Positions 22,934 through 50,100 of a stretch of 64,000 nucleotides of DNA are shown one piece after another. The stretch spans positions 62,001 through 126,000 of the forward strand of contig JAQVWN010000004.1 in the NCBI GenBank assembly GCA_028749475.1. The letters run 5' to 3'. The position numbers and the translations under genes are program-made. Numbering within the stretch: the stretch's first letter is position 1; each line of letters starts with the position of its first letter. The notes beneath the pieces were generated by a model. The model was not told the origin of the DNA, searched no databases, and worked only from the letters and a program-made list of their open reading frames with translations. Source of the stretch: Thomasclavelia sp. Lineage in GTDB: Bacteria > Bacillota_I > Bacilli_A > Erysipelotrichales > Coprobacillaceae.

Positions 22934-24853
22934 TTAACAAAGTTTCTTTTCATCGTTTAATAAAAGATTTAAAAATTTAGTGTAGGAAGGATTAGTAATT
23001 AATTCTTTGTATTCATCTTCTTTGCTTACCATTTTATTCAGTAATTGAAGTAAAGTGTTATAGATATTATGGCTACTATCAACAGCAGAAAATAATATTA
23101 ATATTTGAACATGGTAATTATCAAAAGTAATTGGATTTTTATATATTTGAATGATAAAAGTATTATTTGAATTAATTGTCTTATCTAGTTTTATTATTCC
23201 AATCTTATCATTAATTGGTTTTAAGGTGTATTGAGAAGATGATAGTTTATGAATTAGAGAATCCCGATTATCTTTATATACTCTAGCAAAACAATTATTA
23301 AAACTATTAAATATCTCATCTCGAGTTGTCTTAGTAATATTATCATCATAGAATTTAGGATGAAAATAACTTAAGAAATGTTTATAGTTAACAGAATAGT
23401 TTAGGTAATTACGGACTGTATTCAAATCATCATTTGATATCATTGGAGAGATACTAATGTTGGGAATAGGCAAATTTCGATGAATATGACTAGTAGAAAT
23501 AATCAAATCATATTTACTTAAGTCTTCATCAGTAATTTTGTAATAAGGAGTACTTTTAACTATTTCTAATTGGGAATTAAAATTCTCTTTTAGTTTAAAC
23601 AAACATAAATCAGAAGTTACATTTGCAAGTGAACATACTAATAAGACCTTTTTTCTAGTTTCATTGTTTGATTGAATCATTGTATTGTACATTAAGGTAA
23701 AAGCAGATAATTCACTTCGATTAAAATGCTTGTTCGTATATTTATAAATTACTTTATCAGTAATACGAGCGAGTTCATAAGCAATGGGATTATTAGTTGG
23801 TGCTTCTTCATATAAAGGAGTTCGTAGTTTTTCATTATAAAATAAACGTAATATAGCAATATAAATATACTTATTTAATATTAATGCAGTAGTATTGTTT
23901 ATTCTAATTAGTGTTTTATCGTATATTTCATCTTTAACTTCATTAAAGATTTTAATTATCTGATGATCGTTAGATAAATCTAAGCCACTAGTTGAACGCT
24001 TAGTTACTAAAAGAATAGTGATATTTTGAAGTTCATACTCAGATAGAGAAACACCTTTTTCTTTTAAATAAGCTACTATTTGTAAGGCGGCTTGGTATTC
24101 ACTTCTTGTTTTAAACTGTTCAAATTTAGGAAATGGTTCTTCTATTTCAAACCCTGATGAATAACGATATATAGATGTAGATAAAGATATTAAAAAATCA
24201 CATAAGGAAATATCATTTATTTCAATATGATTATTTTTAATAATGGTAATGATACTATTTTCTAAAGTGTTTTCTTTAATTAAAAAGTTATCTAAGTAGT
24301 CATATAACATATTCGATTTATTAAGATTAGCGAAATTATTATCAATTAATGGTTCCCTTAAATCCTTTTCTTTTCCAATAATTCTTATTCCATAATTTGG
24401 ACGTTGTTTTAGAACTAAATTATATTTCTTAATCATATATTTTCTAACACTTGTTAAATCATTTGAAATTGTTGATCTAGATACTAGTAATTCTTCAGCT
24501 AAATCATCTAGTTTTATATAATCATTAGTTTCAATTAATCTTTGAATAATGTAGTTTTGTCTTTCCTCTGGGAGAGTTGGGAAGAGGGTGTCTCTTTCTT
24601 TTTCGGAATCATTAAGAGCTTTAGTGAGACTACTCAATGCTTGAGCTGATTTATTTACTATTAAATAACCTTTAGAGGCTTTAGAAGCTAATTCACAATT
24701 ATAAGTTTTTAAGATTTTTTTGATGTCATTAATCTTTTCGCGAACTAATCGACGATTAATTTTTGTGGCAACAGCAATATCATAAGAAGAAATATAATCA
24801 GCACTTCCTAATAGTAGTTTTATTATTTGAATTTCGTTTTTTTCAAATACCAT
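22934..24853 (-). CDS. PRD-containing transcriptional regulator (BglG/MtlR/LicR type)
   Basis: A 639-residue PTS-responsive regulator. Order: a helix-turn-helix (about 5-60), a second Mga/HTH_11-type domain (about 95-165, LAEELLVSRSTISNDL), two PRD-like domains (about 185-290 and 300-400), an EIIB-like domain beginning KKVLLVCSLANVTSDL (about 405-485), and an EIIA-like C-terminal domain. The PRD positions usually holding phosphorylatable His read Ser and Tyr (SLSTSIYRYSSG; NKYIYIAILRLF). The start at 24853 is chosen for GAGGTGG 5 bases before it; an ATG 24 bases upstream has none. It lies divergent from a PTS permease it probably activates. Confidence 0.82.
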   Translation of the reverse strand: MVFEKNEIQIIKLLLGSADYISSYDIAVATKINRRLVREKINDIKKILKTYNCELASKASKGYLIVNKSAQALSSLTKALNDSEKERDTLFPTLPEERQNYIIQRLIETNDYIKLDDLAEELLVSRSTISNDLTSVRKYMIKKYNLVLKQRPNYGIRIIGKEKDLREPLIDNNFANLNKSNMLYDYLDNFLIKENTLENSIITIIKNNHIEINDISLCDFLISLSTSIYRYSSGFEIEEPFPKFEQFKTRSEYQAALQIVAYLKEKGVSLSEYELQNITILLVTKRSTSGLDLSNDHQIIKIFNEVKDEIYDKTLIRINNTTALILNKYIYIAILRLFYNEKLRTPLYEEAPTNNPIAYELARITDKVIYKYTNKHFNRSELSAFTLMYNTMIQSNNETRKKVLLVCSLANVTSDLCLFKLKENFNSQLEIVKSTPYYKITDEDLSKYDLIISTSHIHRNLPIPNISISPMISNDDLNTVRNYLNYSVNYKHFLSYFHPKFYDDNITKTTRDEIFNSFNNCFARVYKDNRDSLIHKLSSSQYTLKPINDKIGIIKLDKTINSNNTFIIQIYKNPITFDNYHVQILILFSAVDSSHNIYNTLLQLLNKMVSKEDEYKELITNPSYTKFLNLLLNDEKKLC

Positions 24854-24875
24854 TTTGACCACCTCGACTACTAAC

Positions 24876-24911
24876 ATTATAACAAAATCTTATATTTGCG
24901 TAAACGTTTAC
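24876..24911 (-). promoter_or_regulatory. Promoter and LacI/CcpA-type operator of the PRD regulator gene
   Basis: Minus-strand TGT-TATAAT (-10, complement of 24876-24881). A perfect palindrome GTAAACGTTTAC (24900-24911) overlaps the -35 position, as expected for repression by CcpA or the local LacI protein. Confidence 0.65.
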
Positions 24912-25020: not shown

Positions 25021-25053
25021 TATAATAAATCTAGAGGTGAGAAAACGTTTACC
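25021..25053 (+). promoter_or_regulatory. -10 and roadblock operator of the PTS EIIC gene
   Basis: TATAAT (25021-25026) is followed about 15 bases on by GAAAACGTTTACC (25041-25053). The latter matches the site in front of the epimerase gene (30977-30989) at 12 of 13 positions. It lies just downstream of the expected transcription start. Confidence 0.6.
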
Positions 25054-25095: not shown

Positions 25096-26442
25096 ATGTC
25101 TACTGAAAAGAAGTCTTTCATGGACACAGTATTGGAAAAAGTTGATGTTATATCAGGTCCAATGACGAAGTTTGGTCAAATACCATTCGTTCGTGGTATC
25201 GTTAATGGTATGGTAAGTGCCTTACCAGTAACAATGGTCGGATCTATTTTCTTGGTAGTATACCTATTCTGTTCAGATGGTGGAATTACTACTACAGCTT
25301 TACTTCCATTCTTAAAACCATGGGCTGGTGACTTGGCATTAGTTAACAGCTTATCAATGGGTATCATGGCAGTTTATATCGTAATTGCTTTTGGTGCTGA
25401 ATATGCCGATATCAAAGGGATTAACAAAACTACAGGTGCTGTTGGTTCGTTCTTTGCATTCATGTTATTAAACTACAATGCAGTAGGACAACTAGTAGTA
25501 ACTGCAAAAGACGGTACTTTAAGTGCTGGAGCTAGTGCTTTTGAATCTACTTATTGGGGAGGATCTGGTTTAATTACAGCTATGATTGCTGGGGCTGTAG
25601 CTATTAATGTTATTAACCAATGTTATAAACATAATATTACAATTAAATTACCAGACACAGTTCCACCAGCTATCGCTGATAGTTTTTCTGCAATTATTCC
25701 ATACTTCTTCATCACAATTATTTGTTGGGGTGTAAGAACTATCGCTGGTGTTAATATTCCAGATTTAATCGGGAAAATGTTATTACCAGTATTAGGAGCA
25801 GCTGATAATATCTTCGTTTATTCATTACAACAATTCTTATCAGCTTTATTATGGATTTGCGGTTTACATGGTGATAATATTACTGGTGCAGTAACAAATG
25901 TATTTGTTAACCAATGGTTAGCTGATAATAACACTGCATATATGGCAGGTACTGCTGTTAAAGATTTACCATATGTTTGGACTCCAAACTTATGCAGGTT
26001 ATCGCAATGGGTATCTTCTTGTTGGCCAATCTTAGTTTATATGTTTATGTCTAGTAAGAAATTACCACATTTAAAACCTTTAGGTATTGTTTGTTTACCA
26101 CCTGCAGTGTTCTGTATAATTGAACCAATTATGTTCGGTTTACCAGTAGTTATGAATGGTTTCTTATTGATTCCATTTATCTTAGCTCATACCTTGACCG
26201 GTGCCTTAACTTATTGGTTAACGAGCATTGGATTTGTTGGTAAGATGTATATGTCATTACCTTGGGCAACACCTTCACCAATACTTGGTTACCTTGGAGC
26301 TGGTGGATCTATTGGTGGAGCAATAATTGTATTTGTTAACTTTGCAATTGGTTTGGTTATCTTCTATCCATTCTGGAAAGCTTATGAAAAATCTGAAATT
26401 GCTAAGTTAAACGATGAAACACCAGAAGCAGAAGCTGCTTAA
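25096..26442 (+). CDS. PTS sugar transporter EIIC, lactose/cellobiose type
   Basis: A 448-residue PTS permease subunit with about 10 helices. Recognised by LPDTVPPAIADSFSAIIPYF (about 194-213), the GLHGDNIT sugar-site motif (about 256-263) and EPIMFGLPVVMN. It deviates from the family consensus: NINEP is CIIEP and the following NP is NG, both in the substrate-binding region, so its sugar may be unusual. AGGGAGG precedes the ATG. No EIIA/EIIB are encoded nearby. A hairpin terminator follows, with zinc-ribbon genes, manA and a GH1 phosphoglycosidase downstream that probably use its product. Confidence 0.88.
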   Translation: MSTEKKSFMDTVLEKVDVISGPMTKFGQIPFVRGIVNGMVSALPVTMVGSIFLVVYLFCSDGGITTTALLPFLKPWAGDLALVNSLSMGIMAVYIVIAFGAEYADIKGINKTTGAVGSFFAFMLLNYNAVGQLVVTAKDGTLSAGASAFESTYWGGSGLITAMIAGAVAINVINQCYKHNITIKLPDTVPPAIADSFSAIIPYFFITIICWGVRTIAGVNIPDLIGKMLLPVLGAADNIFVYSLQQFLSALLWICGLHGDNITGAVTNVFVNQWLADNNTAYMAGTAVKDLPYVWTPNLCRLSQWVSSCWPILVYMFMSSKKLPHLKPLGIVCLPPAVFCIIEPIMFGLPVVMNGFLLIPFILAHTLTGALTYWLTSIGFVGKMYMSLPWATPSPILGYLGAGGSIGGAIIVFVNFAIGLVIFYPFWKAYEKSEIAKLNDETPEAEAA

Positions 26443-28408: not shown

Positions 28409-29833
<1,425 letters not shown>

Positions 29834-29836
<3 letters not shown>

Positions 29837-29866
29837 AAGCACTGAATTTAATCAGTGCTTTTTTTA
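29834..29866. terminator. Bidirectional terminator between the GH1 and lacI-type genes
   Basis: Stem AAAAGCACTGA / TCAGTGCTTTT followed by a T run on the plus strand. The stop codon of the convergent LacI gene lies in the hairpin. Confidence 0.88.
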
Positions 29867-30882
29867 GTTGATTCGCGAGGAATAAAGGTTACAGGTAAAA
29901 TCGTATGTCGTTTGTCATCGCTAATTTCTATTCCATTCATTAAATCAAGCAAAAGACCACAAGCTTTTTGACTTAACCCAGGAATATCTTGCTTAATTGT
30001 TGAAATGGAAGGATTGGACATTTTGGAAATAAAGATGTCATCAAATCCGACAACTTTGACTTGCTCTGGTACTTTAATGTTTAATGAAAATAAACCTTGG
30101 ATAACCCCATAAGCACGCCAGTCATTAGTTGCAAATACACCATCGAATTTTTTCCCTGATTTTACTAATTTTTTAATTGCATCTTTAGCCCCTTCAGTAT
30201 TACTACCTTCATCTTCATTAATAAATATTTCTAACTCAGGATCAATTTTTAGATGATGATCAAGTAAGGCTTGACGATATCCTTCGCATCTTTGACGATT
30301 AACTGAAAGAGTCCTTTTTCTGGAGATAATTGCGATATCTTTGCATCCTTGTTTAATCAATTCTTCTGTGGCCATATAACCACCACTATAGTGGTTAGAT
30401 TCAACATAGTAAGCATCAATATGATCTATAGGTTTTCTATCGATACAGACAATAGGAATGTCTCGAGTTACAACATTGGTAGGTATTTTTTCAATTCCTG
30501 AAATACAAATAATACCATCAACTAATTTAGAATCTAAGGAACGAAAGTATTCAATTTCTTTTTTATCGTCCCTAGATGTATTACAAATAAAAACAGAATA
30601 TTTATGGTCAAAAAAATACTTTTCTATCTCTAGGGCTAATAAAGAAAACCATTCATTATCAATGTTGGGTAGAATTAAACCTACTGTTTTAGATTTAGAA
30701 GATCTTAATGAACGGGCAGCCATATTAGTTGTATAGTTATGTTCTTTGATAACTTTTTCTACTCGCTCTTTGGTTTCTTGAGAAAATCTTCCATTATCAT
30801 TGATTACTCGAGAGACTGTCGCTACTGAGACATTTGAAAGTTTTGCGATTTCTTTTATTGAGATGCTCTTTTGTTTTTTCAT
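29848..30882 (-). CDS. LacI-family transcriptional regulator
   Basis: A 344-residue repressor. N-terminal HTH and hinge helix: SIKEIAKLSNVSVATVSRVIND and NMAARSLRSSKSKTVGLILP (shown in part). A periplasmic-binding-type effector domain follows (about 65-340), with FATNDWRAYGVIQGL and the usual VVGFDDIFISKMSNPSISTI. Its probable operators G-N-AAACGTTTACC lie before the epimerase gene (divergent), before the EIIC gene at 25.1 kb and, in shorter form, before the PRD gene. It has a TATAAT at 30901-30906 (complement) and AAGGGG before its ATG. Effector unknown; CcpA could share the sites. Confidence 0.87.
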   Translation of the reverse strand: MKKQKSISIKEIAKLSNVSVATVSRVINDNGRFSQETKERVEKVIKEHNYTTNMAARSLRSSKSKTVGLILPNIDNEWFSLLALEIEKYFFDHKYSVFICNTSRDDKKEIEYFRSLDSKLVDGIICISGIEKIPTNVVTRDIPIVCIDRKPIDHIDAYYVESNHYSGGYMATEELIKQGCKDIAIISRKRTLSVNRQRCEGYRQALLDHHLKIDPELEIFINEDEGSNTEGAKDAIKKLVKSGKKFDGVFATNDWRAYGVIQGLFSLNIKVPEQVKVVGFDDIFISKMSNPSISTIKQDIPGLSQKACGLLLDLMNGIEISDDKRHTILPVTFIPRESTKKSTD

Positions 30883-30976: not shown

Positions 30977-30989
30977 GGAAACGTTTACC
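30977..30989 (+). promoter_or_regulatory. LacI-type operator before the epimerase gene
   Basis: GGAAACGTTTACC, a near-perfect dyad in the divergent region between lacI and the epimerase gene, about 40 bases before the epimerase ATG. Confidence 0.7.
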
Positions 30990-31028: not shown

Positions 31029-31682
31029 ATGGAAAAATTATTATGCCCATCAATGATGTGCGCTAATTATGGCAATTTAGAAAAGGAAGTTCAAGAATTA
31101 GAGGAAGCGGGAATCGACTTTTTTCATATTGATTTGATGGATGGAAGTTATGTTCCTAACTTTGGAATGGGATTGCAAGATATTGAGTACCTTACTACTC
31201 ATTCTTCTAAACCTTGCGATATTCATCTAATGGTGGTTAATCCAAGTGCTTATGTTGAAAAATTTGCAAAAATGGGAATTAAAATTATATATATTCATCC
31301 GGAAACTGATGTCCATGCTTGCCGAACATTACAACTGATTAAAGATGCTGGAGTTCATCCGGGAATTGCAGTTAATCCAGGTACATCCTTTGAAACAGTT
31401 AAAGATTTATTATATTTATGTGATTATGTTATGTTGATGAGTGTTAATCCAGGATTTGCAGGACAAAAGTATTTGGATTTTGTTACTCCTAAGTTTGAAG
31501 AGTTTGTAAATGAAGCCAAGAACTATGGTGGATATGATGTTATGATTGATGGTGCTTGCTCACCAGAAAAGATTCAAATGTTATCAAAAGTAGGTGTTAA
31601 AGGATTTATCCTTGGTACAAGTGCTTTATTTGGAAAAGATAAAACATATAAAGAAATAATTCCAGAATTAAGAAAACTATAA
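31029..31682 (+). CDS. Ketose-phosphate 3-epimerase (Rpe/AlsE family)
   Basis: A 217-residue TIM-barrel epimerase inverting C3 of a ketose phosphate. Motifs: LCPSMMCANYGNLEKEV, the metal/catalytic FHIDLMDGSYVPNF, DIHLMVVNP, the phosphate-handling MLMSVNPGFAGQKY, VMIDGACSPEKI and FILGTSALF. The family contains ribulose-5-P epimerase and allulose-6-P epimerase. With PTS genes around it, and rpiB directly after it, an AlsE-like role on allulose-6-P is attractive, but sequence alone does not decide. GAAGGAG precedes the ATG. Expression is probably repressed by LacI. Confidence 0.85.
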   Translation: MEKLLCPSMMCANYGNLEKEVQELEEAGIDFFHIDLMDGSYVPNFGMGLQDIEYLTTHSSKPCDIHLMVVNPSAYVEKFAKMGIKIIYIHPETDVHACRTLQLIKDAGVHPGIAVNPGTSFETVKDLLYLCDYVMLMSVNPGFAGQKYLDFVTPKFEEFVNEAKNYGGYDVMIDGACSPEKIQMLSKVGVKGFILGTSALFGKDKTYKEIIPELRKL

Positions 31683-31706: not shown

Positions 31707-32156
31707 ATGAAAATTGGAATTGGTAATGATCACGTAGCAGTCGAATATAAAAATGAAATTAAAAAGTATATTGAAGATAAGTATCAATATGAAGTAGTAA
31801 ACTTCGGTACTGATAGTACCGAAAGATTTAATTATCCAGTATCAGGTGAAGCAGTAGCTAATGCTGTTGTTTCCGGTGAAGTTGATAAAGGAATAGTTAT
31901 TTGTGGAACAGGTGTCGGAATTTCTTTAGCGGCAAATAAAGTCAATGGAATTAGATGTGTTACTTGTTCAGAGCCTTATTCAGCTTTACTATCACGTCAA
32001 CACAATAATACTAACATGCTAGCGTTTGGAGCTAGGGTTGTTGGTATAGAATTAGCAAAAATGATTGTTGATGCGTGGTTAAGTGGTGAATATGAAGGTG
32101 GTCGTCACCAGGTTCGTATTGATATGTTGACGGATATTGAAAACCGTCAAAAATAG
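31707..32156 (+). CDS. rpiB: Ribose-5-phosphate isomerase B / allose-6-phosphate isomerase family
   Basis: A 149-residue RpiB/LacA/LacB-family aldose-ketose isomerase. Visible are GIGNDHVAVEYK (where most family members have a Ser or Cys before Asp-His), the active-site Cys66 in VICGTGVGISLAANKV, and LSRQHNNTNMLAFGARV with the phosphate-binding region. RpiB of E. coli also isomerises allose-6-P to allulose-6-P, which would feed the epimerase immediately upstream (24-base gap, GAAAGAAGGA before the ATG). Confidence 0.88.
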   Translation: MKIGIGNDHVAVEYKNEIKKYIEDKYQYEVVNFGTDSTERFNYPVSGEAVANAVVSGEVDKGIVICGTGVGISLAANKVNGIRCVTCSEPYSALLSRQHNNTNMLAFGARVVGIELAKMIVDAWLSGEYEGGRHQVRIDMLTDIENRQK

Positions 32157-32371: not shown

Positions 32372-32878
32372 ATGAAATTTACAGAAGTAATGCATTTATC
32401 ATTTTATACAGATAATATGGCAGCAATGCGCGATTTCTATGAAAATAAACTTGGATTAAAAGCAAAAATAATTATGAGATATGAAGCCTATAAAGGACAA
32501 ACTAATCGTGGAGCATGGGCTGACAGGGCTGAAACTAACCCAAAGGATATTGCGTATATCTTTATCGAATTGGCTCCTGGGCAATATTTAGAATTATTTC
32601 CTAAAGCAGACCATCAAAATGAACATGATATTCCTGATAGTCATTTAGGATATTCTCATTTTGCATTAATGGTTGAAGATATTCAAGAAGCTCATAATGA
32701 ATTAGTAAGAGCTGGAGTTTCAATTGATATTTAACCAAATAAAGGTCAATCGGAGACATGGCAAATGTGGACACATGATCCCGATGGTAACAAATTTGAG
32801 ATAATGCAATATACTCCAAAATCTTTACAATTCAAAGGAAACATCAAAGAAGATAAAGCAAGATATGAAAAGAGATAA
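32372..32878 (+). pseudogene. Glyoxalase/VOC-fold protein interrupted by an in-frame TAA
   Basis: The frame opens with MKFTEVMHLSFYTDNM and reads through a vicinal-oxygen-chelate domain. At codon 121 (32732-32734) a TAA stops it after VSIDI. The same frame then continues for 47 codons to a TAA at 32876-32878, encoding ETWQMWTHDPDGNKFEIMQY, the conserved end of the VOC fold with its last metal ligand (Glu). The break is one codon with no frameshift, so it is a recent nonsense change or a sequence error. The truncated 120-residue product lacks the final strand and ligand. Shine-Dalgarno AAGAAAGGA. Confidence 0.85.
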
Positions 32879-32898
32879 ACTAATGTTTATCTCTTTTT
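32867..32898. terminator. Bidirectional terminator between the VOC pseudogene and rpiR
   Basis: Perfect stem AAAAGAGATAAAC / GTTTATCTCTTTT with a TAAT loop. It overlaps the 3' ends of both convergent genes. Confidence 0.88.
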
Positions 32899-33656
32899 AA
32901 ACATATTGAGGTATATAAAATATCAATAATATAGTGAATAGATAATCCGTACAACATAATACCAAATGGTAAATGATGAGGTAAAGAATCTAAATATAAA
33001 CTCTCATTGCAAACTAACTCTAATGAAGGATCCATCTTCCCAGTTAATGCAATTACTCTAATTTGTTTTTTTCTTAGGTAGTAAGCCGAATCAACCATTG
33101 TTTGATTATTACCTGAATGACTAACTACAAATGCTAATGTTTCGGAAGGATTACAATTTTCAAGATAGGCTGTGTTTAAAGTGTTAAAAGCTTGGGCTCT
33201 AATACCAATAGTATTAAATTTTAAACAAGCTGATTGAACTTCTGCATAATTATTATCATTTGCGTAAAAATCGATTTGTTTTGCTTGCAACATATAATTG
33301 ATTGTTCTCACAAATGAGTCTGTTTTAGTGAGTTTTTTTGTTTCCATAAAAACATGATAATAAACATCAGGTAAGACATCAATGATGTCATTTAAAGAAC
33401 TATCTTTATCAAGTTGGAGATCTCTTGTTTGATTGAACATTATATTTTCTTGGGTATAAGCTAATTGAAACTCTAAGTAACCTTTAAACCCTAATTTCTG
33501 TACAAATCTAATAATAGTAGGAGAAGAAACATATGTTAGTTGTGCGAGCTCTTTAGCGTTATTAGTTGTAATACACTCTGGGTGCTCTTGAATATAAGAA
33601 ACAATTGCCTCTTCTTGAGCAGTAAGTTTTCGGTTTTGAATTAATTCGCTTATCAT
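32880..33656 (-). CDS. RpiR-family transcriptional regulator
   Basis: A 258-residue regulator. An N-terminal HTH_6 domain (about 1-75; LAQLTYVSSPTIIRFVQKLGFKGYLEF, shown in part) is followed by a SIS sugar-phosphate-binding domain (about 105-240; ETLAFVVSHSGNNQTMVDSAYYLRKK). The family senses phosphosugars; the founding member controls rpiB and allose genes in E. coli. The palindrome ATGAAATTCAATTTCAT lies over its own -35 region and upstream of the divergent six-gene operon it probably controls. The ribosome-binding region is TTGGAGAT. Confidence 0.85.
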   Translation of the reverse strand: MISELIQNRKLTAQEEAIVSYIQEHPECITTNNAKELAQLTYVSSPTIIRFVQKLGFKGYLEFQLAYTQENIMFNQTRDLQLDKDSSLNDIIDVLPDVYYHVFMETKKLTKTDSFVRTINYMLQAKQIDFYANDNNYAEVQSACLKFNTIGIRAQAFNTLNTAYLENCNPSETLAFVVSHSGNNQTMVDSAYYLRKKQIRVIALTGKMDPSLELVCNESLYLDSLPHHLPFGIMLYGLSIHYIIDILYTSICLKRDKH

Positions 33657-33717: not shown

Positions 33718-33811
33718 GAATCTTAAATAATAATGAAATCTAAATAAATAATCGTTTTAACAAATGATTTATTTAGTGTACTTACCTATTATTAAGGTAG
33801 GAGGAATAAGA

Positions 33812-34756
33812 ATGGAACTAAATCAAAATATTACTAGATTAATTACGGCAAAACCAAGTCAAATAGCGACATATAATGGCCGTCAATTAAAAGAAGCAAT
33901 TTACAAATCTGAAGGAAGAGTATCTATGGGGCAAACTTATTTAAATAATCCTATTACGATGCCAACATGCACTAATACCGAGATACAATTTCATTTTGGA
34001 GCAGATATGGTGATGTTAAATGGTTTTGATTTTCTAAACCCAACTACACCCCAGGGAATGCAAGGGTTCACTTATCAAGAATTAAAAAAATTAGCTAATG
34101 GAAGACCAGTAGGAATATACATGGGGTGTCCAGGTGCTGATTTTAATATGGATGATCCCAATGTTAACCAAGCATTAAAAGGAATGATTTATAGTAAAGA
34201 CAATGTTAAAAAAGCAGTAGAATGGGGAGTCTCTTTTGTCGTATTAGGTGGTAATCCAAATAGTGGAACATCCATTAAAGATGTTATTCGTGCCACTAAA
34301 GAATGTCGTGAAGTATGTGGAGAAGACATGTTGATTTTTGCCGGTAAATGGGAAGATGGAATCACTGAAAAAGTTTTAGGAGATCCGTTAGCAACCTATG
34401 ATGCTAAAGAAGCAATCAAAGAGTTGATTGATGCTGGGGCTGATGTTATTGATTTTCCAGCACCAGGATCACGTCATGGAATTACTGTTGAAATGATTCG
34501 CGAACTGATTGAATTCACTCATCGTTATAAAGAAGGAACCCTAGCTATGTCATTTTTAAATAGTAATGTCGAAGCTGCAGATCGTGAAACCATTAGACAA
34601 ATTGCTTTAATGATGAAACAAACTGGTGCAGATGTTCATGCAATTGGTGATGGCGGTATCGGCGGAGGAACATGGCCAGAAAACATTTATCAATTAGCAA
34701 TTACTTTAAAAGGTAAATACTACACTTGGCAACAAATGTGTACATCTAATCGTTAA
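33812..34756 (+). CDS. TIM-barrel protein of unknown function from PTS operons (DUF7916-like)
   Basis: A 314-residue cytosolic protein. Secondary-structure pattern and motifs suggest a TIM barrel: FGADMVMLNGFDF (about 60-72), VGIYMGCPGADFN, SFVVLGGNPNSGT, AGADVIDFPAPGSRHG and ADVHAIGDGGIGGGTWPEN (phosphate-binding-like Gly cluster). I associate it, with limited certainty, with a domain of unknown function frequent in PTS sugar operons. The start at 33812 is set by AGGAGG; an ATG at 33764 has none. It is first gene of the RpiR-flanked operon. A lyase or isomerase acting on a phosphosugar is possible, not shown. Confidence 0.6.
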   Translation: MELNQNITRLITAKPSQIATYNGRQLKEAIYKSEGRVSMGQTYLNNPITMPTCTNTEIQFHFGADMVMLNGFDFLNPTTPQGMQGFTYQELKKLANGRPVGIYMGCPGADFNMDDPNVNQALKGMIYSKDNVKKAVEWGVSFVVLGGNPNSGTSIKDVIRATKECREVCGEDMLIFAGKWEDGITEKVLGDPLATYDAKEAIKELIDAGADVIDFPAPGSRHGITVEMIRELIEFTHRYKEGTLAMSFLNSNVEAADRETIRQIALMMKQTGADVHAIGDGGIGGGTWPENIYQLAITLKGKYYTWQQMCTSNR

Positions 34757-34779
34757 TAATCAAAGAGAGAAGGAATAGT

Positions 34780-35799
34780 ATGTTGGTTGTTGCTTATATA
34801 GGGTTTGGTAATAGTTGTTGTCGCTATCACTTACCATATGTTCAAAAAAGAAAAGATACTGTAAAAGTAAAATATATATATCGTTTACCTGAAGAAATAG
34901 ATCCGGAAAAAGAGAGTTGGTATCCGGGAATAATTTTTACAAGTAATATTAACGATATTATGGATGATTCCGAAGTTAATCTCGTTAGTATTAACTGTCC
35001 AGATGAGTTCCATGAAAAATACTCAATTCAAGCAATTGAACGTAATAAAAATGTTCTATGTGAAAAACCTTTTGCATTAACATCAGAAGGTGCTAAGAAG
35101 ATTTTTGATTATGCAAAAGAAAAAGGTGTAGTTATTATGCCTAATCAAAATCGTAGGTTTGATGCTGATATGCGGACTATACGGAAAGTTATTAAATCGG
35201 GTGTTTTAGGAGAAATTCTAGAGGTTGAATCTCACTATGATTACTATCGTCCTCAAATAGCTAATCATGTTGGCATGGGAATGTTATATGGATTAGGAGT
35301 ACATCCAATTGACCAGATGATTGGGGAATTTGGACTTCCAAATAAAGTTGTTTATGATTGTCGTAGTTTTGATAATCCAGGGAAATCAGATGATTATTAT
35401 GATATAGATTTATTTTATGGCAATATGAAAGCAATTGTAAAAACAAGTTTTTATGTAAAAATTGATTATCCAAGATTTATCATTCATGGTCGTAAAGGAA
35501 GTTTTATTATGCCGCAACTAGGACATCAAAGTTCTCAAGGAAAAACCTCAGGCCCAGTTCAAATAAGTTTTAATCCTTTACCCGAAGATAAGTGGGGAAT
35601 ATTAAGCTATTTTGATGACAATGGACAAGATATTACTAAGAAAGTTCCGACAGAGATTCAGGATTATGGAATTATTTATGACATTTTATATGATGTTATA
35701 TTTAACCATGGAACTAAAGTAATTAAAGATGAGGAAGTAATCGAAGTGTTAAAGATTATTGAAGAAGCAACTAAAGTTGCTAGGGAGGCCAAGCAATGA
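34780..35799 (+). CDS. Gfo/Idh/MocA-family oxidoreductase
   Basis: A 339-residue NAD(P)-dependent sugar dehydrogenase. An N-terminal Rossmann domain starts VAYIGFGNSCC. The catalytic-Lys motif NVLCEKPFALT is near residue 91-101. The C-terminal domain has NQNRRFDADM and GLGVHPIDQM, carrying the Asp/His pair. Members oxidise or reduce ring hydroxyls of sugars and cyclitols, often at C3. Its place between the TIM-barrel protein and two GH1 enzymes suggests it modifies the sugar or glycoside 6-phosphate. The stop overlaps the HAD gene (ATGA). Shine-Dalgarno GAGAAGGA. Confidence 0.85.
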   Translation: MLVVAYIGFGNSCCRYHLPYVQKRKDTVKVKYIYRLPEEIDPEKESWYPGIIFTSNINDIMDDSEVNLVSINCPDEFHEKYSIQAIERNKNVLCEKPFALTSEGAKKIFDYAKEKGVVIMPNQNRRFDADMRTIRKVIKSGVLGEILEVESHYDYYRPQIANHVGMGMLYGLGVHPIDQMIGEFGLPNKVVYDCRSFDNPGKSDDYYDIDLFYGNMKAIVKTSFYVKIDYPRFIIHGRKGSFIMPQLGHQSSQGKTSGPVQISFNPLPEDKWGILSYFDDNGQDITKKVPTEIQDYGIIYDILYDVIFNHGTKVIKDEEVIEVLKIIEEATKVAREAKQ

Positions 35800-36551
35800 A
35801 AGCACTAGCTTCGGATTTTGATAATACTTTTTATTTCAAAGATGTTCAAGAAAAATACCATCAAAGTGATATTGATGCCATAAAACAATTTCAAAAAAAA
35901 GGTAATTTATTTGGCTTATGTACAGGAAGGCCGCTAGCATTACTTACAAAACCACTAAAAGGATTATTAGAACCAGATTTTTATATTATTAGTACTGGTT
36001 CCTTAATTTTAGATAAAAACTATCAGGTGCTATACAAAGAGGAACTTGACAAACAAACAGCTTCCAAAATATATAACACTTATCGTAATGAGATAGAATG
36101 TATCGCTTGTACTTTATCAAAGGATAAATTCTATTTCAGCACTAACGAAAGAGAAGATAAAGATTTAATATGTTTTAATAAAATCGAAGATGTTCAAGAA
36201 AAAATATTTAGTATTTCCTTAGTTGAATCCACAAGAAAAAGAGCTCTAGAAATAGCAGAGGAAATATTACAGAAATATGACAATGTTGATGCTTATGTAA
36301 ATATTGATTCTGTTGATATTGTACCTAAAGGATGTTCTAAAGGTGATGGAGTGAACAGATTAAGGTCGATATTAAATATTAGCAGTATTATGGGAATCGG
36401 AGATTCTTATAATGATTTACCAATGTTAGAAGAAGCCAACACAGCTTTTACTTTTGATTATTCACCGAAAGAAATTCAGAAAAAAGCTGATTATGTTGTT
36501 TCGAGTATAAATGAAGCAATTCAAAAAATAGAAAGTGAGGATTTAAAATGA
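35796..36551 (+). CDS. HAD-superfamily sugar phosphatase (Cof type)
   Basis: A 251-residue HAD hydrolase of the Cof/IIB subfamily. Motif I SDFDNTFYF (Asp7 nucleophile, Asp9), motif II CTGRPLA, a cap domain (about 85-180), the late Lys in VPKGCSKGDG and motif IV IMGIGDSYNDLPM. It dephosphorylates small sugar phosphates, so it may relieve phosphosugar stress or release a free sugar in this pathway. It overlaps both neighbours by 4 bases (ATGA junctions at each end), showing tight translational coupling. Substrate unknown. Confidence 0.85.
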   Translation: MKALASDFDNTFYFKDVQEKYHQSDIDAIKQFQKKGNLFGLCTGRPLALLTKPLKGLLEPDFYIISTGSLILDKNYQVLYKEELDKQTASKIYNTYRNEIECIACTLSKDKFYFSTNEREDKDLICFNKIEDVQEKIFSISLVESTRKRALEIAEEILQKYDNVDAYVNIDSVDIVPKGCSKGDGVNRLRSILNISSIMGIGDSYNDLPMLEEANTAFTFDYSPKEIQKKADYVVSSINEAIQKIESEDLK

Positions 36552-38014
36552 GTTTTCCAAAAGGATTTTTATGGGGTGGTAGTATTTCTGCAGCCCAAAT
36601 TGAAGGTGGATGGAATGAAGGAGGAAAATCTCCAGTATCAGTAGACTATTGTACTGCAGGATCCACTAAAGGCAGAAGAGAAATATGGTATCTTGATGCA
36701 AATGGGAATAAAGCCCATCAACAATGGGAACCTGTTGATGAATTACCAGAAGGAGCCAAATATCAATTATTTGATGATCTACATTATACAAATCATATAG
36801 CTTCAGATTTCTATCATCATTATGAAGAAGATTTAGGATTAATGCATGAAATGGGGTATACAACATTTAATACTTCTATTTCTTGGGCTAGAATTATGCC
36901 CCATGGAATTAAAGGTGGTATTAACCAAGAAGGTGTCGAATTTTATCGTAATGTCTTTAAACTAGCTCGTGAATATGGAATGGATCCTGTTATTACTTTA
37001 TATAAGTATGATGAACCAGTATCGTTAAATGAACAGCATGGTAGTTGGACTAATAGGAAGATGATTGATGAATTTGTTGAATTTGCAAAAGTCTGTTTTA
37101 GTGAATATAAAGATTTAGTAAATAAATGGATGACTTTTAATGAAATTAATATCATTATGCCACTATCTGATTGTGATCAACAAAAAGCAAAAAGAAACAT
37201 AGTTTATTTACATAATCAATTAGTAGCAGCTGCTAGAGCAACAATAGCAGCCCATGAAATTGATCCAAATTTAAAAGTTGGAGCAATGATTTGCGGTAAT
37301 ATGAATTACCCTTTAACACCAGATCCTTTAGATGCTTTAGCTACTTATACTAGATTCCAAGATTTCTTTGGATATAGTGCTGATACTCAAGTACGTGGAT
37401 ATTATCCACCATACGCTAAAAGAATTTGGAATAGTATTGGATATAAACCAGAAATAACAAAACAAGACGAAGAAGATTTGTTGAAGGGGAAATCTGATTT
37501 CTTAGGATTTTCATATTATGCTTCTGGAGTAATAACTACTCATGAAGTCAAAGAAGAAAATGTTACTGGAGGGAATGTATTAGGAACCATAAAAAATCCA
37601 TACCTTCAAGCCAATGAATGGGGTTGGCAAATAGATGCAGTTGGATTCAAACATTTCTTACATATAATGAACGATCGCTATAACGTACCATTATTTGATG
37701 TTGAAAATGGAATTGGATTAGTTGAAAAAGAAGATTCAGACGGAATATGTCATGATCCTGCAAGAATTGCTTATCATAAAGCTCATATTCAATGTATGAA
37801 AGAAGCAGTTGAAGAAGGAGTTGATTTATTTGGCTATACAACTTGGGGATGTATTGATTTAGTTTCCGCAGGGACTGGTCAAATGGATAAAAAATATGGA
37901 TTTGTTTATGTTGATATGGATGATCAAGGTAATGGAGATTTACATCGTTCTAAAAAAGATTCATTTTATTGGTATAAAAAAGTCATCGCTACAAATGGCG
38001 AAGACTTAGATTAG
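36548..38014 (+). CDS. GH1 phospho-glycosidase with His-to-Lys change in the sugar subsite
   Basis: A 488-residue GH1 enzyme closest in pattern to E. coli BglA. Gln in SAAQIEGGW, acid/base Glu199 (TFNEIN), nucleophile Glu386 (DVENGIG), and the phosphate pattern SAGTGQMDKKYGFVYVD are all kept, so it should be an active 6-phosphoglycosidase. But BglA SHFEMP reads YKYDEP here: Lys153 replaces the family's His that contacts the 3-OH of the -1 sugar. About 20 extra residues (WYLDANGNKAHQQWEPVDEL region, about 43-62) precede FYHHY. Start overlaps the HAD gene by 4 bases; a near paralogue follows 9 bases later. Confidence 0.88.
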   Translation: MSFPKGFLWGGSISAAQIEGGWNEGGKSPVSVDYCTAGSTKGRREIWYLDANGNKAHQQWEPVDELPEGAKYQLFDDLHYTNHIASDFYHHYEEDLGLMHEMGYTTFNTSISWARIMPHGIKGGINQEGVEFYRNVFKLAREYGMDPVITLYKYDEPVSLNEQHGSWTNRKMIDEFVEFAKVCFSEYKDLVNKWMTFNEINIIMPLSDCDQQKAKRNIVYLHNQLVAAARATIAAHEIDPNLKVGAMICGNMNYPLTPDPLDALATYTRFQDFFGYSADTQVRGYYPPYAKRIWNSIGYKPEITKQDEEDLLKGKSDFLGFSYYASGVITTHEVKEENVTGGNVLGTIKNPYLQANEWGWQIDAVGFKHFLHIMNDRYNVPLFDVENGIGLVEKEDSDGICHDPARIAYHKAHIQCMKEAVEEGVDLFGYTTWGCIDLVSAGTGQMDKKYGFVYVDMDDQGNGDLHRSKKDSFYWYKKVIATNGEDLD

Positions 38015-38023
38015 GAGGTTATT

Positions 38024-39475
38024 ATGAGTTTTCCAGATAAATTTTTATGGGGTGGTAGTATTTCTGCTGCTCAATGTGAAGGAGCGTGGGATGAAGATGG
38101 CAAAAGTCCCGTTCAAGTAGATTTTGGAGATCCAGGGACTACTACAGATAATCGCTATATCCATTATTTGAATGCTGATGGTACTAGAGGTAAAATGAGA
38201 CAATTTGATCATTTACCTAAAGGAGCTAAATATCATATTTTTGATGATGTTCGATACACTAACCATGTTGGAATTGATTTCTATCATCACTATAAAGAGG
38301 ATATTGCTATGTTAGCACAAATGGGATTTACAACTTTTAATACAACTATTTCATGGGCTAGAATTTTTCCTCATGGAGTTGAAGGAGGAGTAAATCTAAA
38401 AGGTGTTGAATTCTATCGAGATATGTTTAAGGAATGCCGTAAGCATGGGATGGATCCAGTTATTACATTATATAAGTATGATGAACCAGTTTATTTAGAA
38501 GAAACATACGGAGATTGGACTAATCGTGAAATGATTAACCAATTTGTTGAATTCGCAAAAGTATGTTTTAGTGAATATAAAGACTTAGTAAATAAATGGT
38601 TAACATTTAATGAAATTAATATTCTTTTACACTTTGATGTTAAAGAAGGAAAACAAGTTGCTTTTGAAGAATTACATAATCAAATGGTTGCTTCAGCTAG
38701 AGCTACAATTGCTGCTCATGAAATAGACTCTGATATTAAAGTAGGATGTATGATTGCGGGGTTCTGTGTATATCCATATACTTGTGATCCTCAAGATGTT
38801 TTACTTGCATATAAAACTTTTCAAGAAAAATTTGGCTATTGTGCAGATACAATGGTTAGAGGTTATTATCCAAATTACGCTTCTAGAATTTGGAAGGATA
38901 ATAATGTAAGGCTGAATATTAGTGAAGAGGATAAAAAAGATTTAATGGATGGAAAATCTGATTTTCTTGCTTATTCATATTATATGTCAAGTGTTACAAC
39001 TACTCATAATGATGGTGAAATGCTTGATGGTGCTGGTATGCCATCTAGTTTGAAGAATCCATATATTGATGCTTCTGATTGGGGTTGGCAAATAGATCCT
39101 ACAGGTTATGAGTATTTCTTACACTTCTTATATGATCGTTATCAAATTCCATTATTTGATGTTGAAAATGGATTAGGGGCTCATGATAAGGTTGAAGCTG
39201 ATGGAGCGATTCATGATAGTTATCGAATTGATTATTTAAGAGGACATATTAAATCATTAATGAAAGCCCGTGAAGAAGGAGTTAATATCTTTGGATATAC
39301 TACTTGGGCACCAATTGATTTAGTATCTTTTACTACTGGTCAAATGGATAAACGTTATGGTTTTATCTATGTTGATATGAATGATAAAGGACAAGGTGAT
39401 CTTCACCGTAGTAAAAAGGATTCTTTCTATTGGTATAAAAAAGTGATTGAAAGTGATGGAAAGGATTTAGATTAA
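38024..39475 (+). CDS. GH1 phospho-glycosidase, tandem paralogue with the same His-to-Lys change
   Basis: A 483-residue GH1 enzyme, clearly a tandem duplicate of the preceding gene: the same FLWGGSISAAQ start, the same insertion (YLNADGTRGKMRQFDHLPKG, about 43-62), and the same LYKYDEP with Lys151 for the conserved His. Acid/base TFNEIN, nucleophile DVENGLG and the 6-phosphate pattern SFTTGQMDKRYGFIYVD are intact. The copies differ around the loops bordering the aglycone site (HFDVKEGKQ against PLSDCDQQK), so they may split substrates by aglycone. AGGAGG precedes the ATG. The stop overlaps the next ATG by 1 base. Confidence 0.88.
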   Translation: MSFPDKFLWGGSISAAQCEGAWDEDGKSPVQVDFGDPGTTTDNRYIHYLNADGTRGKMRQFDHLPKGAKYHIFDDVRYTNHVGIDFYHHYKEDIAMLAQMGFTTFNTTISWARIFPHGVEGGVNLKGVEFYRDMFKECRKHGMDPVITLYKYDEPVYLEETYGDWTNREMINQFVEFAKVCFSEYKDLVNKWLTFNEINILLHFDVKEGKQVAFEELHNQMVASARATIAAHEIDSDIKVGCMIAGFCVYPYTCDPQDVLLAYKTFQEKFGYCADTMVRGYYPNYASRIWKDNNVRLNISEEDKKDLMDGKSDFLAYSYYMSSVTTTHNDGEMLDGAGMPSSLKNPYIDASDWGWQIDPTGYEYFLHFLYDRYQIPLFDVENGLGAHDKVEADGAIHDSYRIDYLRGHIKSLMKAREEGVNIFGYTTWAPIDLVSFTTGQMDKRYGFIYVDMNDKGQGDLHRSKKDSFYWYKKVIESDGKDLD

Positions 39476-40116
39476 TGAGTAATTTTGATGAAATTAGAAA
39501 ACTAAATCCTCAATATGAAATAAAAAGTATTAACGATACTTCGTTTAAAGAATATGGAATATTAGTTGATAAAGATTGTAGCGAAGGAATTGACTTCGCT
39601 ACAAATTATCAATTATCGTCAGGTTATGATTCTAGCATTATTGAACTTGAGCAACTCCCTTCAATTAGGAATATTTCTAATACTGTCTATGGTTATTTGG
39701 ATGTTCAAGTTGGAATAGTAAGTGGTCATAATAATGTATTAAATGGCCTTGAATATCATCAATGTTCAGAAACTATTATTGCGGTTACTGATTATATTCT
39801 TGTTGTTGGACATCGTTGGGATATAAATAACAACGAATATGATTCAACTAAATGTGTAGCTTTTTATATTCCTCAAGGAAGCATCGTTGAATGGTATGCA
39901 ACAACTTTACATTACACACCTATTGCGATAAATAAAAACGGGTTTAAAACAATTTGTTTCTTATTAAAAGAGACCGGTAATGATTGCCAAAGAATAGGAA
40001 TATTAAAAAAGAAAAACAAATGGTTTATTGCTCATAAAGATAATATTGATAAAATAAAAATAGGTGATTTTCCTGGCCTAAAAGGTAAGATGATTGAAAT
40101 AAATCAAATTATATAA
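39475..40116 (+). CDS. DUF4867-family cupin-like protein
   Basis: A 213-residue cytosolic protein that I match to DUF4867: LNGLEYHQCSETIIAVTDYILVVG (shown in part), YDSTKCVAFYIPQGSIVEWYATTLHYTPI and the late LLKETGNDC. The ordered His/Glu residues (EYHQCSE, TTLHY) resemble a metal-binding cupin such as a sugar isomerase or epimerase. Members sit next to PTS and phosphosugar genes. Last gene of the six-gene operon, joined to GH1 by TAATG. Activity unknown. Confidence 0.7.
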   Translation: MSNFDEIRKLNPQYEIKSINDTSFKEYGILVDKDCSEGIDFATNYQLSSGYDSSIIELEQLPSIRNISNTVYGYLDVQVGIVSGHNNVLNGLEYHQCSETIIAVTDYILVVGHRWDINNNEYDSTKCVAFYIPQGSIVEWYATTLHYTPIAINKNGFKTICFLLKETGNDCQRIGILKKKNKWFIAHKDNIDKIKIGDFPGLKGKMIEINQII

Positions 40117-47154: not shown

Positions 47155-50100
47155 ATGAGGAGAATGAAAAAGATTTTTTTAACATGCGTAACTATATTTT
47201 TATGTTGCGCTCTTTGTGTTTGTCTTTTTTCTTCATTTAAAGATACTCGTGCGCAAAATACCCACTTTACAACTTTAGAGATTAGAGAAGGAGGAGTAGA
47301 CGGTAACGTTGTGGCGGATCTTTTAAATGGTGATGGTAATTATGCATTACAACCAGGAAAAGACTATTATTTATGTGTTCAATTGAACAATCCAGCTGCC
47401 AGTGGTGAAACTGGCTATGTATCAGTTGACTTTGGAACTGATGGAAAGAGTAATGGATTAACTTTCTTTAATCCACCAGGTGGAGGTAATTTAAAACCAG
47501 GAGCAATTACTCATGATAACTTAGCTAGTATTTATTCTTATAATGATATTCCAAATAAAACCTATGGAAAAGATCAAACAAATTACCCAATGACTGATGG
47601 TAAGATTGTTTATACAATAAAAGACGCAATAGCGTTAAATGGAACAGTCACTTTTGCGACTGGTTTAGTTGTGGATAATTACTACTACGCTTGCGAAAGT
47701 GAAATTAAAAATGCAATTGAAGTTGAATGCGGTATTATCGATAATGATATTTTAGTCCCAGCTAGTAATCTTAATTTAGATGTTAATGTCTCTGGAGATA
47801 AAGCTTTTAAACTAGCATCTAATCCTTATACCTACAATACAAGCCTAGGATCAAGTGCGACTTTTGTTACAATAATCTCAGCTGATAATAATAAACCTGG
47901 GGGAATACTCTTTAAGAAGGCTGAGATGGATATTAATGTTCCTGAAGGTGGAGAAATATTAGATTACGGAGTAATTAATGGCTCATTCGAAAAATCATCA
48001 GTATATCATGAAAGTTTTAGTATGAGTGATGGAGTTACTAAAGATGGTATGACTACCTACCATCTAACATTTAATAATGGTATTAAATTGGATAGTAATG
48101 AAATACAAGCTTATGTAAAAGTGAATTTCCCTAAAGATAAATTCAATGAGGGTACTTACACTGTTACATTAACTAATGGAACAATTACACCAATGAATGA
48201 AAACTCAGATACAATTACAGTTAATGGCAGCGTAAATCTTAAAACAAATTTATTAGATCCTGAATCTGATAAAACAACAATGGAAGATAAAAATCGGGCT
48301 TCAGTATATAACTGGACAATTGATGACCCAGAAGCAAAATATAACACTCAATTAGGATGTACAGTAATTACTAATCCTCAAACTGCTGATACTCCTTATG
48401 AAAAAACTTTTGAAGCAAAATATAATGTTACTAATACAGCAGCTAAAATTACTATTATTACTCTTCCTAAAGGAACTAATAGTAATCCTACAATTACTTA
48501 CACTGGTAAAGATGCAAACGGAGTGGAACAAGCTGGAAGCATCCCAGTAAGTTTAAATAAAGGTGCGGCTTCTCAAAGCTGGTATGTCTTTAGAGCCATG
48601 GACTTAGGAATAGATGAATTTAAATCAATTAAATATGAAATGGGAAAACTTCCAGGAAGTACAAGGAGTCCATGGAGTGCGTGCTATGATTATACTAATA
48701 ACCGAGCAGGTTCTTGGGGTTACTTCACTAATGATGAAATTGGTTTACAAGTGAAGAATGAATATAAACTATATAATACTGATGTTACTAAAAGAGATGA
48801 ACAAAATGGTAATTTAAGTTCAAGCTCAGCTGTTACTTCTTCAACAACTCCAATTGCTGGATTAAATTGTTATCTTGATTACAACAATGTTTATGCTAGT
48901 GATAGAAAGACTAAAACAAATTCAGTAACAGCAGGGGATAGTATTTATATAAAAGATGCAAGCCTTACAACTACACAAATGACCGAAGCAGTAAGACTTC
49001 GTGATGTTGTAGGACAACCATACGCTAATACGTCTACTGTGTATAACCCGGTAATGTATTTAACTTTACCGAAAGGGATGACATATTCAGATTTAAGTTT
49101 CAAAATGAAGACTGTTAATATGGATTCATCCAATAAATCAACAACTTCCTTATCGTATAATATTGAGAATGTAAGTTACTTAAATACCACTGGAGATGGA
49201 ACAAGTATTTATAAAGTTACATTCCCAGATAAAACTCAAATTGGTTTTTACGATGATGAAGGATATTACAAAGTAATTTACTATAGTATTCAATTAAATA
49301 CAGCCAAATATCTTTCAACTCAACGATATGAATTTAATAATTTATTTCATTTAACAACAGATAGTAATCTATATGCTGGTAAATATGGAACGACAACTGC
49401 CGGTGATAAAAAGATTGCCGATGCAACTAAAGATATTTATGGACTTAATGATGGGAATGATATTGGGGGAGCAGCTCGTAAAGAAACTCCCGAATATGGA
49501 TTTGGAGTTCAACAATTAAGTGAAATAGTTGTTACCAATTCTATTACAGTTAGTACTATCAATAATACTCCAATAAGTAATCCTAAATGGTATAACTATG
49601 ATGCAACGGATCCTAATAGTGTTGCTTTGTTAGGATTAAAGAGTACTGGAACTTATCGAATAAACATTCATAATCCATCAAGTGCAACAAGTGTCGATAT
49701 GAAAATGTTTATTCCTATTCCTAAAAAAGATGTTGATCTTGGTAAAGCCTTTATGGATGAACAAAGTAAGTTTGATATGAACTTATCTTTTGATGAAGAA
49801 GACTTAGCTAGTAAAGGATTTACAGCTAAGTATGTAAAGATAAGTGGCCAATATGATAGTGTCTTAAAAGATAATGTAGTATATGAAGATAGTAGTGCTA
49901 GTGAAGCTAATGCTATACTTCTAACTTATAACGGCTCTTTTGGTGATCAGTATAGTACTAACCTTGATTTTGATTTCATTACTGATGGTACTGTTGATGA
50001 CTTGAATAAACAAAACATCTTTAGAGATGCTTTCTATTATGAAAGTGCTGGTGATAGTAATGGTAAGTCCTTATACGGAACTCATGTTGCTACAGAAACG

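Follow-up and report, generated by a model that had tools for sequence, protein, structure and literature searches.

We analysed a 64-kb window of contig JAQVWN010000004.1 of Thomasclavelia sp. (GCA_028749475.1, positions 62,001 to 126,000; source genome 1.84 Mb), a member of the Coprobacillaceae, the family that also includes Sharpea, Eggerthia, Longibaculum and Stoquefichus. The window contains two adjacent genes of glycoside hydrolase family 1 (GH1), GH1a and GH1b, whose active sites carry two unusual residues. They lie in the span 33812-40116 with genes for a DUF7916 protein, a Gfo/Idh oxidoreductase, a HAD phosphatase and a DUF4867 protein. A gene reading as lysS follows downstream of DUF4867. 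On the other side, the gene order is BglG-type regulator, EIIC of a phosphotransferase system (PTS), two zinc-ribbon-like proteins, ManA, a third GH1 and LacI, then RPE family, RpiB, glyoxalase fold and RpiR, up to DUF7916, Gfo/Idh, HAD, GH1a, GH1b and DUF4867. The features are as follows.

22934-24877, minus strand: BglG-type regulator
25096-26442, plus strand: PTS lactose/cellobiose-family EIIC, candidate transporter of a LacI/AlsE regulon, also kept beside Lys-type GH1 cassettes
from 27482: ManA
28418-29836, plus strand: His/Arg-type GH1, ordinary 6-phospho-β-glycosidase type, its place beside the cassette conserved
29848-30882, minus strand: LacI-family regulator (nearest named model RbsR, below its cut-off), probable allose-operon repressor, with operator-like sites
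31029-31682, plus strand: AlsE-type epimerase, putative D-allulose-6-phosphate 3-epimerase
31707-32156, plus strand: RpiB/AlsI-type isomerase, putative allose-6-phosphate isomerase
32372-32734, plus strand: glyoxalase-fold protein, recurrent in Coprobacillaceae clusters
32880-33656, minus strand: RpiR/SIS regulator, not an AlsR equivalog
33764-34756, plus strand: DUF7916 protein with a predicted TIM-barrel fold, found repeatedly with AlsE/RpiB cassettes
34780-35799, plus strand: Gfo/Idh oxidoreductase (YhhX-like), accessory of Coprobacillaceae clusters
35796-36551, plus strand: Cof-type HAD phosphatase, accessory
36548-38014, plus strand: GH1a, 488 residues, Lys/Asn type, candidate 6-phospho-β-allosidase (Lys153, Asn108, Glu199, Glu386)
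36869-36871, plus strand: GH1a codon Asn108 (near-invariant Arg in GH1)
37004-37006, plus strand: GH1a codon Lys153 (His in 6-phospho-β-glucosidases)
38024-39475, plus strand: GH1b, 483 residues, Lys/Asn type (Lys151, Asn106, Glu197, Glu381), sister to enterobacterial operon enzymes
38339-38341, plus strand: GH1b codon Asn106
38474-38476, plus strand: GH1b codon Lys151
39475-40116, plus strand: DUF4867 cupin, accessory, with a possible ring-opening or anomer step

In an alignment with 6-phospho-β-glucosidases of solved structure, Lys153 of GH1a and Lys151 of GH1b fall on the His of the TLSHFE(L/M)P motif, as a preliminary description of this DNA had proposed. That description also held that this His, with a Gln, contacts O3 of the sugar in the -1 subsite. 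The structures of Streptococcus mutans SmBgl complexes agree, since His130 and a Gln hold the glycone O3 (PMC3605045). A second change had been missed. The Arg of the (F/Y)R(T/F)SI.W motif is replaced by Asn in both enzymes (Asn108 in GH1a, Asn106 in GH1b). For BglM-G1, Arg75 is reported to form a salt bridge to the catalytic nucleophile and to be “previously considered invariant” in GH1 (PMC6192996). The two substitutions are perfectly coupled. Among 130 aligned GH1 sequences, 90 have the pair Lys/Asn, 36 have His/Arg and 3 have Ala/Arg, the last sequence being a misread frame.

The rest of the site is largely conserved. The catalytic Glu pair (TFNEIN, DVENG) is present in GH1a and GH1b, acid/base and nucleophile Glu are found in 90/90 Lys sequences, and the subsite Gln is kept, all in line with the first description. 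The 6-phosphate pattern Ser/Lys/Tyr claimed there holds for Lys and Tyr (Lys443 and Tyr445 are invariant in the alignment) but not for Ser, which is Gly in GH1a, like in SmBgl, and Thr in GH1b, like in Escherichia coli BglA. The -1 subsite of 6-phospho-β-glucosidases (Gln, His, Asn, Glu, Glu, Trp) is not complete, since Lys replaces His. The shared insert of about 20 residues, located near residues 38-75, is real. The third GH1 of the window does retain its His, and its Arg as well.

GH1 membership is indicated by the Pfam Glyco_hydro_1 match and the (β/α)8 fold. The AlphaFold2 model of GH1b, predicted from an alignment from which the plasmid protein row described below was left out, shows a confident GH1 fold (mean predicted local distance difference test score 91.7), and its nearest solved structures are 6-phospho-β-glucosidases (Foldseek E down to 7e-59). 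With 476.9 and 510.6 bits against 623 for the best model, both enzymes miss the NCBIfam 6-phospho-β-glucosidase cut-off, but these thresholds are stringent, and the window's His-type GH1 does not reach them either. Compared with BglA (2XHY), SmBgl (3PN8/4F79) and L. plantarum LpPbg1, GH1a and GH1b have the same fold, Glu pair, Gln and phosphate-loop Lys and Tyr, at about 40-44% identity. They differ by Lys for the O3-binding His, by Asn for the nucleophile-bound Arg, by the N-terminal insert and by their operon partners. BglM-G1 has also naturally lost the Arg that bridges the nucleophile. There, in contrast, it is changed to His, and substrate specificity is reported to be comparable with or without Arg (PMC6192996).

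As the preliminary description had advised, other GH1 with Lys at this position and their neighbours were sought. When about 85,000 species genomes were scanned, the motif TLYKYDEP turned up in 74 stretches, which together contain about 78 GH1 genes that carry it; relatives reading TLYKYDMP exist as well. The carriers are Erysipelotrichaceae (taken broadly), Coriobacteriia, a few Clostridia, the enterobacteria Citrobacter, Buttiauxella and Silvania, and also Enterococcus and Streptococcus gallolyticus. In 395 Lactobacillales genomes, the pattern [YF]KYDEP identified only two true Lys-GH1 genes (Enterococcus, S. gallolyticus), the remaining matches being unrelated genes. In a quick tree, the Lys/Asn enzymes form one clade of single origin (local support 99), and Lys is invariant across its 71 rows. 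Thus, the occurrence of Lys at the O3-His position is far beyond chance. The enterobacterial copies branch beside GH1b with 83-84% identity, which indicates horizontal transfer as judged from sequence relationships. No close copy of the Citrobacter gene was found in E. coli genomes, only weak bglB matches. Two Listeria seeligeri plasmids, pLIS5 (L197) and pLIS4 (L198), bear a copy 80% identical to GH1b.

The neighbours of these genes are distinctive. RpiB is encoded in 31/66 Lys-GH1 stretches and an RPE-family protein in 29/66. In 25 genomes, both genes lie less than 10 kb away from 26 of 40 Lys-GH1 genes and from 2 of 150 other GH1 genes, the latter being the best-scoring ones listed. Fisher's test gives p of about 1e-19. 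This value is inflated, because related genomes do not count as independent and the set was selected once the gene maps had been given an initial inspection. Even so, the difference between the two kinds of GH1 in these genomes is large, and the two exceptional GH1 share clusters with Lys-GH1. Minimal operons were found in Citrobacter, Buttiauxella and Silvania (RpiR-family, AlsR-like regulator, PTS EIICB, RpiB, RPE of AlsE type, Lys-GH1) and in Enterococcus (EIIC, RPE, RpiB, Lys-GH1, LacI). The L. seeligeri plasmid cassette contains LacI, rpe, rpiB, DUF4867 and Lys-GH1. This allose/alloside-type cassette stands among IS3-family transposase genes on pLIS5 and pLIS4, pointing to mobility.

The RPE proteins of the cassettes cluster with E. 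coli AlsE (95/95), a long branch in this tree, and apart from the housekeeping Rpe of the same genomes. They have Met10, Cys11, Ala144 and Thr197 in common with AlsE. The epimerase of the window belongs to this AlsE clade, with scores below both the AlsE equivalog cut-off (168.7 bits against 271) and the Rpe one (205.4 against 212.6). The cassette RpiB proteins join E. coli RpiB/AlsI (100/100), apart from all housekeeping RpiBs but one on a long branch, and the isomerase of the window is of this RpiB/AlsI type. While the GH1 of the enterobacterial operons is 83-84% identical to GH1b, their AlsE is only 41-43% identical. Enterobacteriaceae and Firmicutes have cassette AlsE proteins of different subclades, although the Lys-GH1s are near neighbours in their own tree. 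The association of Lys-GH1 with AlsE therefore seems to have arisen at least twice.

Comparison with known D-allose operons supports the same metabolic context. In Listeria, lmo0734-0739 is induced by D-allose (PMC5893763; PMC11323731) and gives growth on this sugar; lmo0734-0736 are essential and lmo0737-0738 helpful (PMC5893763). The authors left the presence of a GH1 in this operon unexplained (PMC5893763). The likeness to the window extends to LacI, RPE (alsE), RpiB (alsI), a TIM-fold protein that would be DUF7916 by its position, a PTS and GH1 (PMC5893763, PMC11323731). LacI, RPE, RpiB, DUF7916 and PTS all lie at about 25-35 kb in the window. Here, by contrast, the set is broken up into parts under separate control, and further genes are added; the PTS is a lactose/cellobiose EIIC rather than a β-glucoside IIABC. 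In Lactobacillales, cassettes of LacI, RPE, RpiB, DUF7916 and PTS, once with a GH1, reproduce the lmo0734-0739 order. Other cassettes without GH1 consist of LacI, PTS, RPE, DUF7916, EIIA and RpiB, with DUF4867 added in one genome. The E. coli als operon (alsRBACEK, rpiB) resembles the present system by its AlsE- and RpiB/AlsI-type enzymes and by the AlsR-like regulator of the enterobacterial relatives. A PTS and a glycosidase replace its adenosine triphosphate-binding cassette (ABC) transporter and AlsK kinase, neither of which is found in the window cluster.

A further type of GH1, in which Ala takes the place of the O3-His and the Arg is kept (TLYAYD[LM]P), was observed beside Lys-GH1 genes or allose cassettes in five lineages (L197:1414-2829; L126:5097-6539; L096:6878-8290; L122:5055-6422; L265). 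It adjoins Lys-GH1 in L. seeligeri, Enterococcus, Longibaculum and an Atopobiaceae genome. Among the 395 Lactobacillales genomes, two of the five matches to this pattern are beside an AlsE-type cassette.

From these sequence comparisons, we consider it likely that GH1a and GH1b are 6-phospho-β-D-allosidases feeding a route from allose 6-phosphate (allose-6-P) through allulose-6-P to fructose-6-P. They would be retaining GH1 enzymes with a -1 subsite adapted to a C3-inverted sugar, D-allose. A β-D-alloside would be imported and phosphorylated on O6 by the PTS, or perhaps phosphorylated by a ROK kinase in some relatives. Lys-GH1 would then split the 6-phospho-β-D-alloside into the aglycone and allose-6-P, RpiB/AlsI would turn allose-6-P into allulose-6-P, and the AlsE-type epimerase would yield fructose-6-P. 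The O3 of allose is axial and directed to the α face, the side on which other GH1 enzymes have the nucleophile paired with Arg. Replacement of Arg by Asn may free room there, and the Lys that replaces His may bind O3, keep a positive charge near the nucleophile, or both. Since the axial O3 faces the nucleophile/Arg site, both substitutions would touch the difference between glucose and allose, as reasoned from chemistry. RpiB works at C1/C2 and AlsE at C3 of the hexulose 6-phosphate. The released sugar would be allose-6-P because the two enzymes need a hexose 6-phosphate that becomes allulose-6-P; altrose-6-P is less likely. A glucose-6-P product is disfavoured, RpiB and AlsE being superfluous for it. 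Pentoside substrates were also considered and rejected by reasoning, because a pyranoside cannot bear the 5-phosphate of ribose-5-P.

Several observations weigh against this assignment, besides the inflated Fisher value and the long branch of AlsE. GH1a and GH1b do not share an operon with AlsE and RpiB in the window, and some Coriobacteriia have Lys-GH1 with a PTS gene but RpiB and AlsE are not nearby. The GH1 in the cassette with the exact Listeria order is of the Ala/Arg type, in which the O3-His is lost and the Arg kept; these residues were read in the matching cassette. Finally, lmo0739 is dispensable for growth on free D-allose (PMC5893763), as expected for an enzyme acting only on glycosides, which is not positive evidence.

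Other explanations account for part of the data. Lys could simply replace Arg as the salt-bridge partner of the nucleophile, so that GH1a and GH1b would be 6-phospho-β-glucosidases that are unusual in stability or pH behaviour but unaltered in the sugar they accept, RpiB and AlsE serving free allose from elsewhere. Such a swap of positive charge fits the finding that Arg to Asn and His to Lys always occur together, the phosphate-loop residues are retained, and BglM-G1, a natural Arg to His variant, remains a β-glucosidase (PMC6192996). But a charge relay gives no reason why O3 loses its His, nor does it account for Lys-GH1, unlike other GH1, sitting with AlsE and RpiB, including in the minimal operons of Enterobacteriaceae; we regard it as unlikely. 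Alternatively, allose could be the aglycone or second sugar, GH1 yielding glucose-6-P and free allose or allulose to be phosphorylated for RpiB and AlsE. ROK kinases are found beside Lys-GH1 at six loci, most of them with RpiB and RPE/AlsE, an allose kinase above the curated cut-off is encoded near Lys-GH1 in Coprousia avicola, and several GH1 types share clusters. Yet of the six ROK proteins, one was scored, and its closest model is BglK (β-glucoside kinase) instead of AlsK, with a score far below the BglK cut-off. The minimal operons of Enterobacteriaceae, Enterococcus and Breznakia have no allose kinase beside GH1, RpiB and AlsE, and the residue changes are located in the glycone subsite. 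This makes an allose aglycone quite improbable.

The preliminary description had inferred a substrate differing at C3, either a 6-phospho-β-alloside or a 3-keto intermediate. Its allose half finds good support in the linkage to RpiB and AlsE across phyla, the AlsE/AlsI phylogeny, the AlsR-like regulators, the allose kinase and the Listeria match. In its 3-keto half, Gfo/Idh would oxidise C3 and Lys-GH1 would cleave or bind a 3-keto-6-phospho-glycoside. Gfo/Idh families can act at C3, the protein of the window has weak matches to disaccharide and glycoside 3-dehydrogenases, and its gene adjoins GH1 in several Coprobacillaceae. However, its best model is PRK10206, which we take to be YhhX and not a 3-dehydrogenase, and the hydrolytic Glu pair of the GH1 is intact. 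Close relatives of Gfo/Idh (>70% identity) occur in Coprobacillaceae clusters only, and the gene is missing from the minimal operons, so that it is not a constant C3-dehydrogenase partner of Lys-GH1. A core role of Gfo/Idh as a pathway member is thus not supported, and with Gfo/Idh an accessory of these clusters the 3-keto route appears very improbable.

Regulation of the window genes was also considered. The enterobacterial operon regulators share 38% identity with E. coli AlsR, and AlsR is the best NCBIfam model for the one that was scored (364 bits, cut-off 400). The RpiR of the window obtains 73.7 bits for the same equivalog and cut-off, and is not an AlsR equivalog. The LacI beside AlsE is a likelier allose regulator. 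The palindrome core AAACGTTTAC occurs at three sites in the 64 kb, for 0.16 expected.

24900-24911, second copy 25041-25052, no strand: operator-like palindrome GTAAACGTTTAC, upstream of PTS EIIC
30977-30988, no strand: LacI-type operator-like site GGAAACGTTTAC, between the LacI and AlsE genes

Because they share AAACGTTTAC sites, the PTS EIIC operon and AlsE/RpiB look like one LacI regulon. No such site was found upstream of the DUF7916-Gfo/Idh-HAD-GH1a-GH1b-DUF4867 operon, which diverges from RpiR.

DUF7916 is predicted to be a TIM barrel. Its PDB matches are generic TIM barrels only (TM-score about 0.5), so no function was assigned. As lmo0737 is described as a member of the TIM phosphate-binding superfamily, it should be a DUF7916 protein, judging from operon position and the predicted fold. 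A second, highly conserved copy of DUF7916 was observed elsewhere in most Coprobacillaceae genomes searched (G000:C3:69373-70251). DUF4867 has been proposed by others to act on ketose ring forms; such an action on allulose-6-P would fit. Known from sulfoquinovose clusters, DUF4867 also occurs in allose-type cassettes (L197, L210, L257), which may reflect a substrate property common to both, such as that of a C6-anionic ketohexose. A link of the Lys-GH1 genes to sulfoquinovose through DUF4867 was discarded, DUF4867 being absent from most Lys-GH1 genomes, with no systematic search for sulfoglycolysis genes made. α-L-rhamnosidase and esterase genes were seen near Lys-GH1 genes (L107, L119, L121 and other Coriobacteriia/Solobacterium loci), which would suit the use of acylated plant phenolic glycosides. 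Elsewhere in the window, positions 47155-54282 encode a 2375-residue predicted surface protein, repeat-rich with many similar units.

The literature searched gave no enzyme with 6-phospho-β-alloside specificity, and the term “allosidase” was absent from it. The Lys/Asn clade, with its two coupled active-site changes, predicts a sugar specificity for which this literature holds no enzyme. More tentatively, and with somewhat less than even confidence in the whole, the clade may be the first dedicated 6-phospho-β-D-allosidase family, spread horizontally among gut, rumen and other bacteria for the use of plant allosides; DUF7916 and DUF4867 may be new enzymes for the handling of allose-6-P and allulose-6-P, and the GH1 of these cassettes with His replaced by Ala may be an independent solution to the same substrate. 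The 6-phospho-β-D-allosidase assignment offers a possible reason for the presence of a GH1 gene in D-allose operons. Plant allosides include the allosyl-glucoside flavones of Stachys and Sideritis. The assignment would point to such compounds as microbial food, and DUF7916 and DUF4867 would gain a common chemical context.

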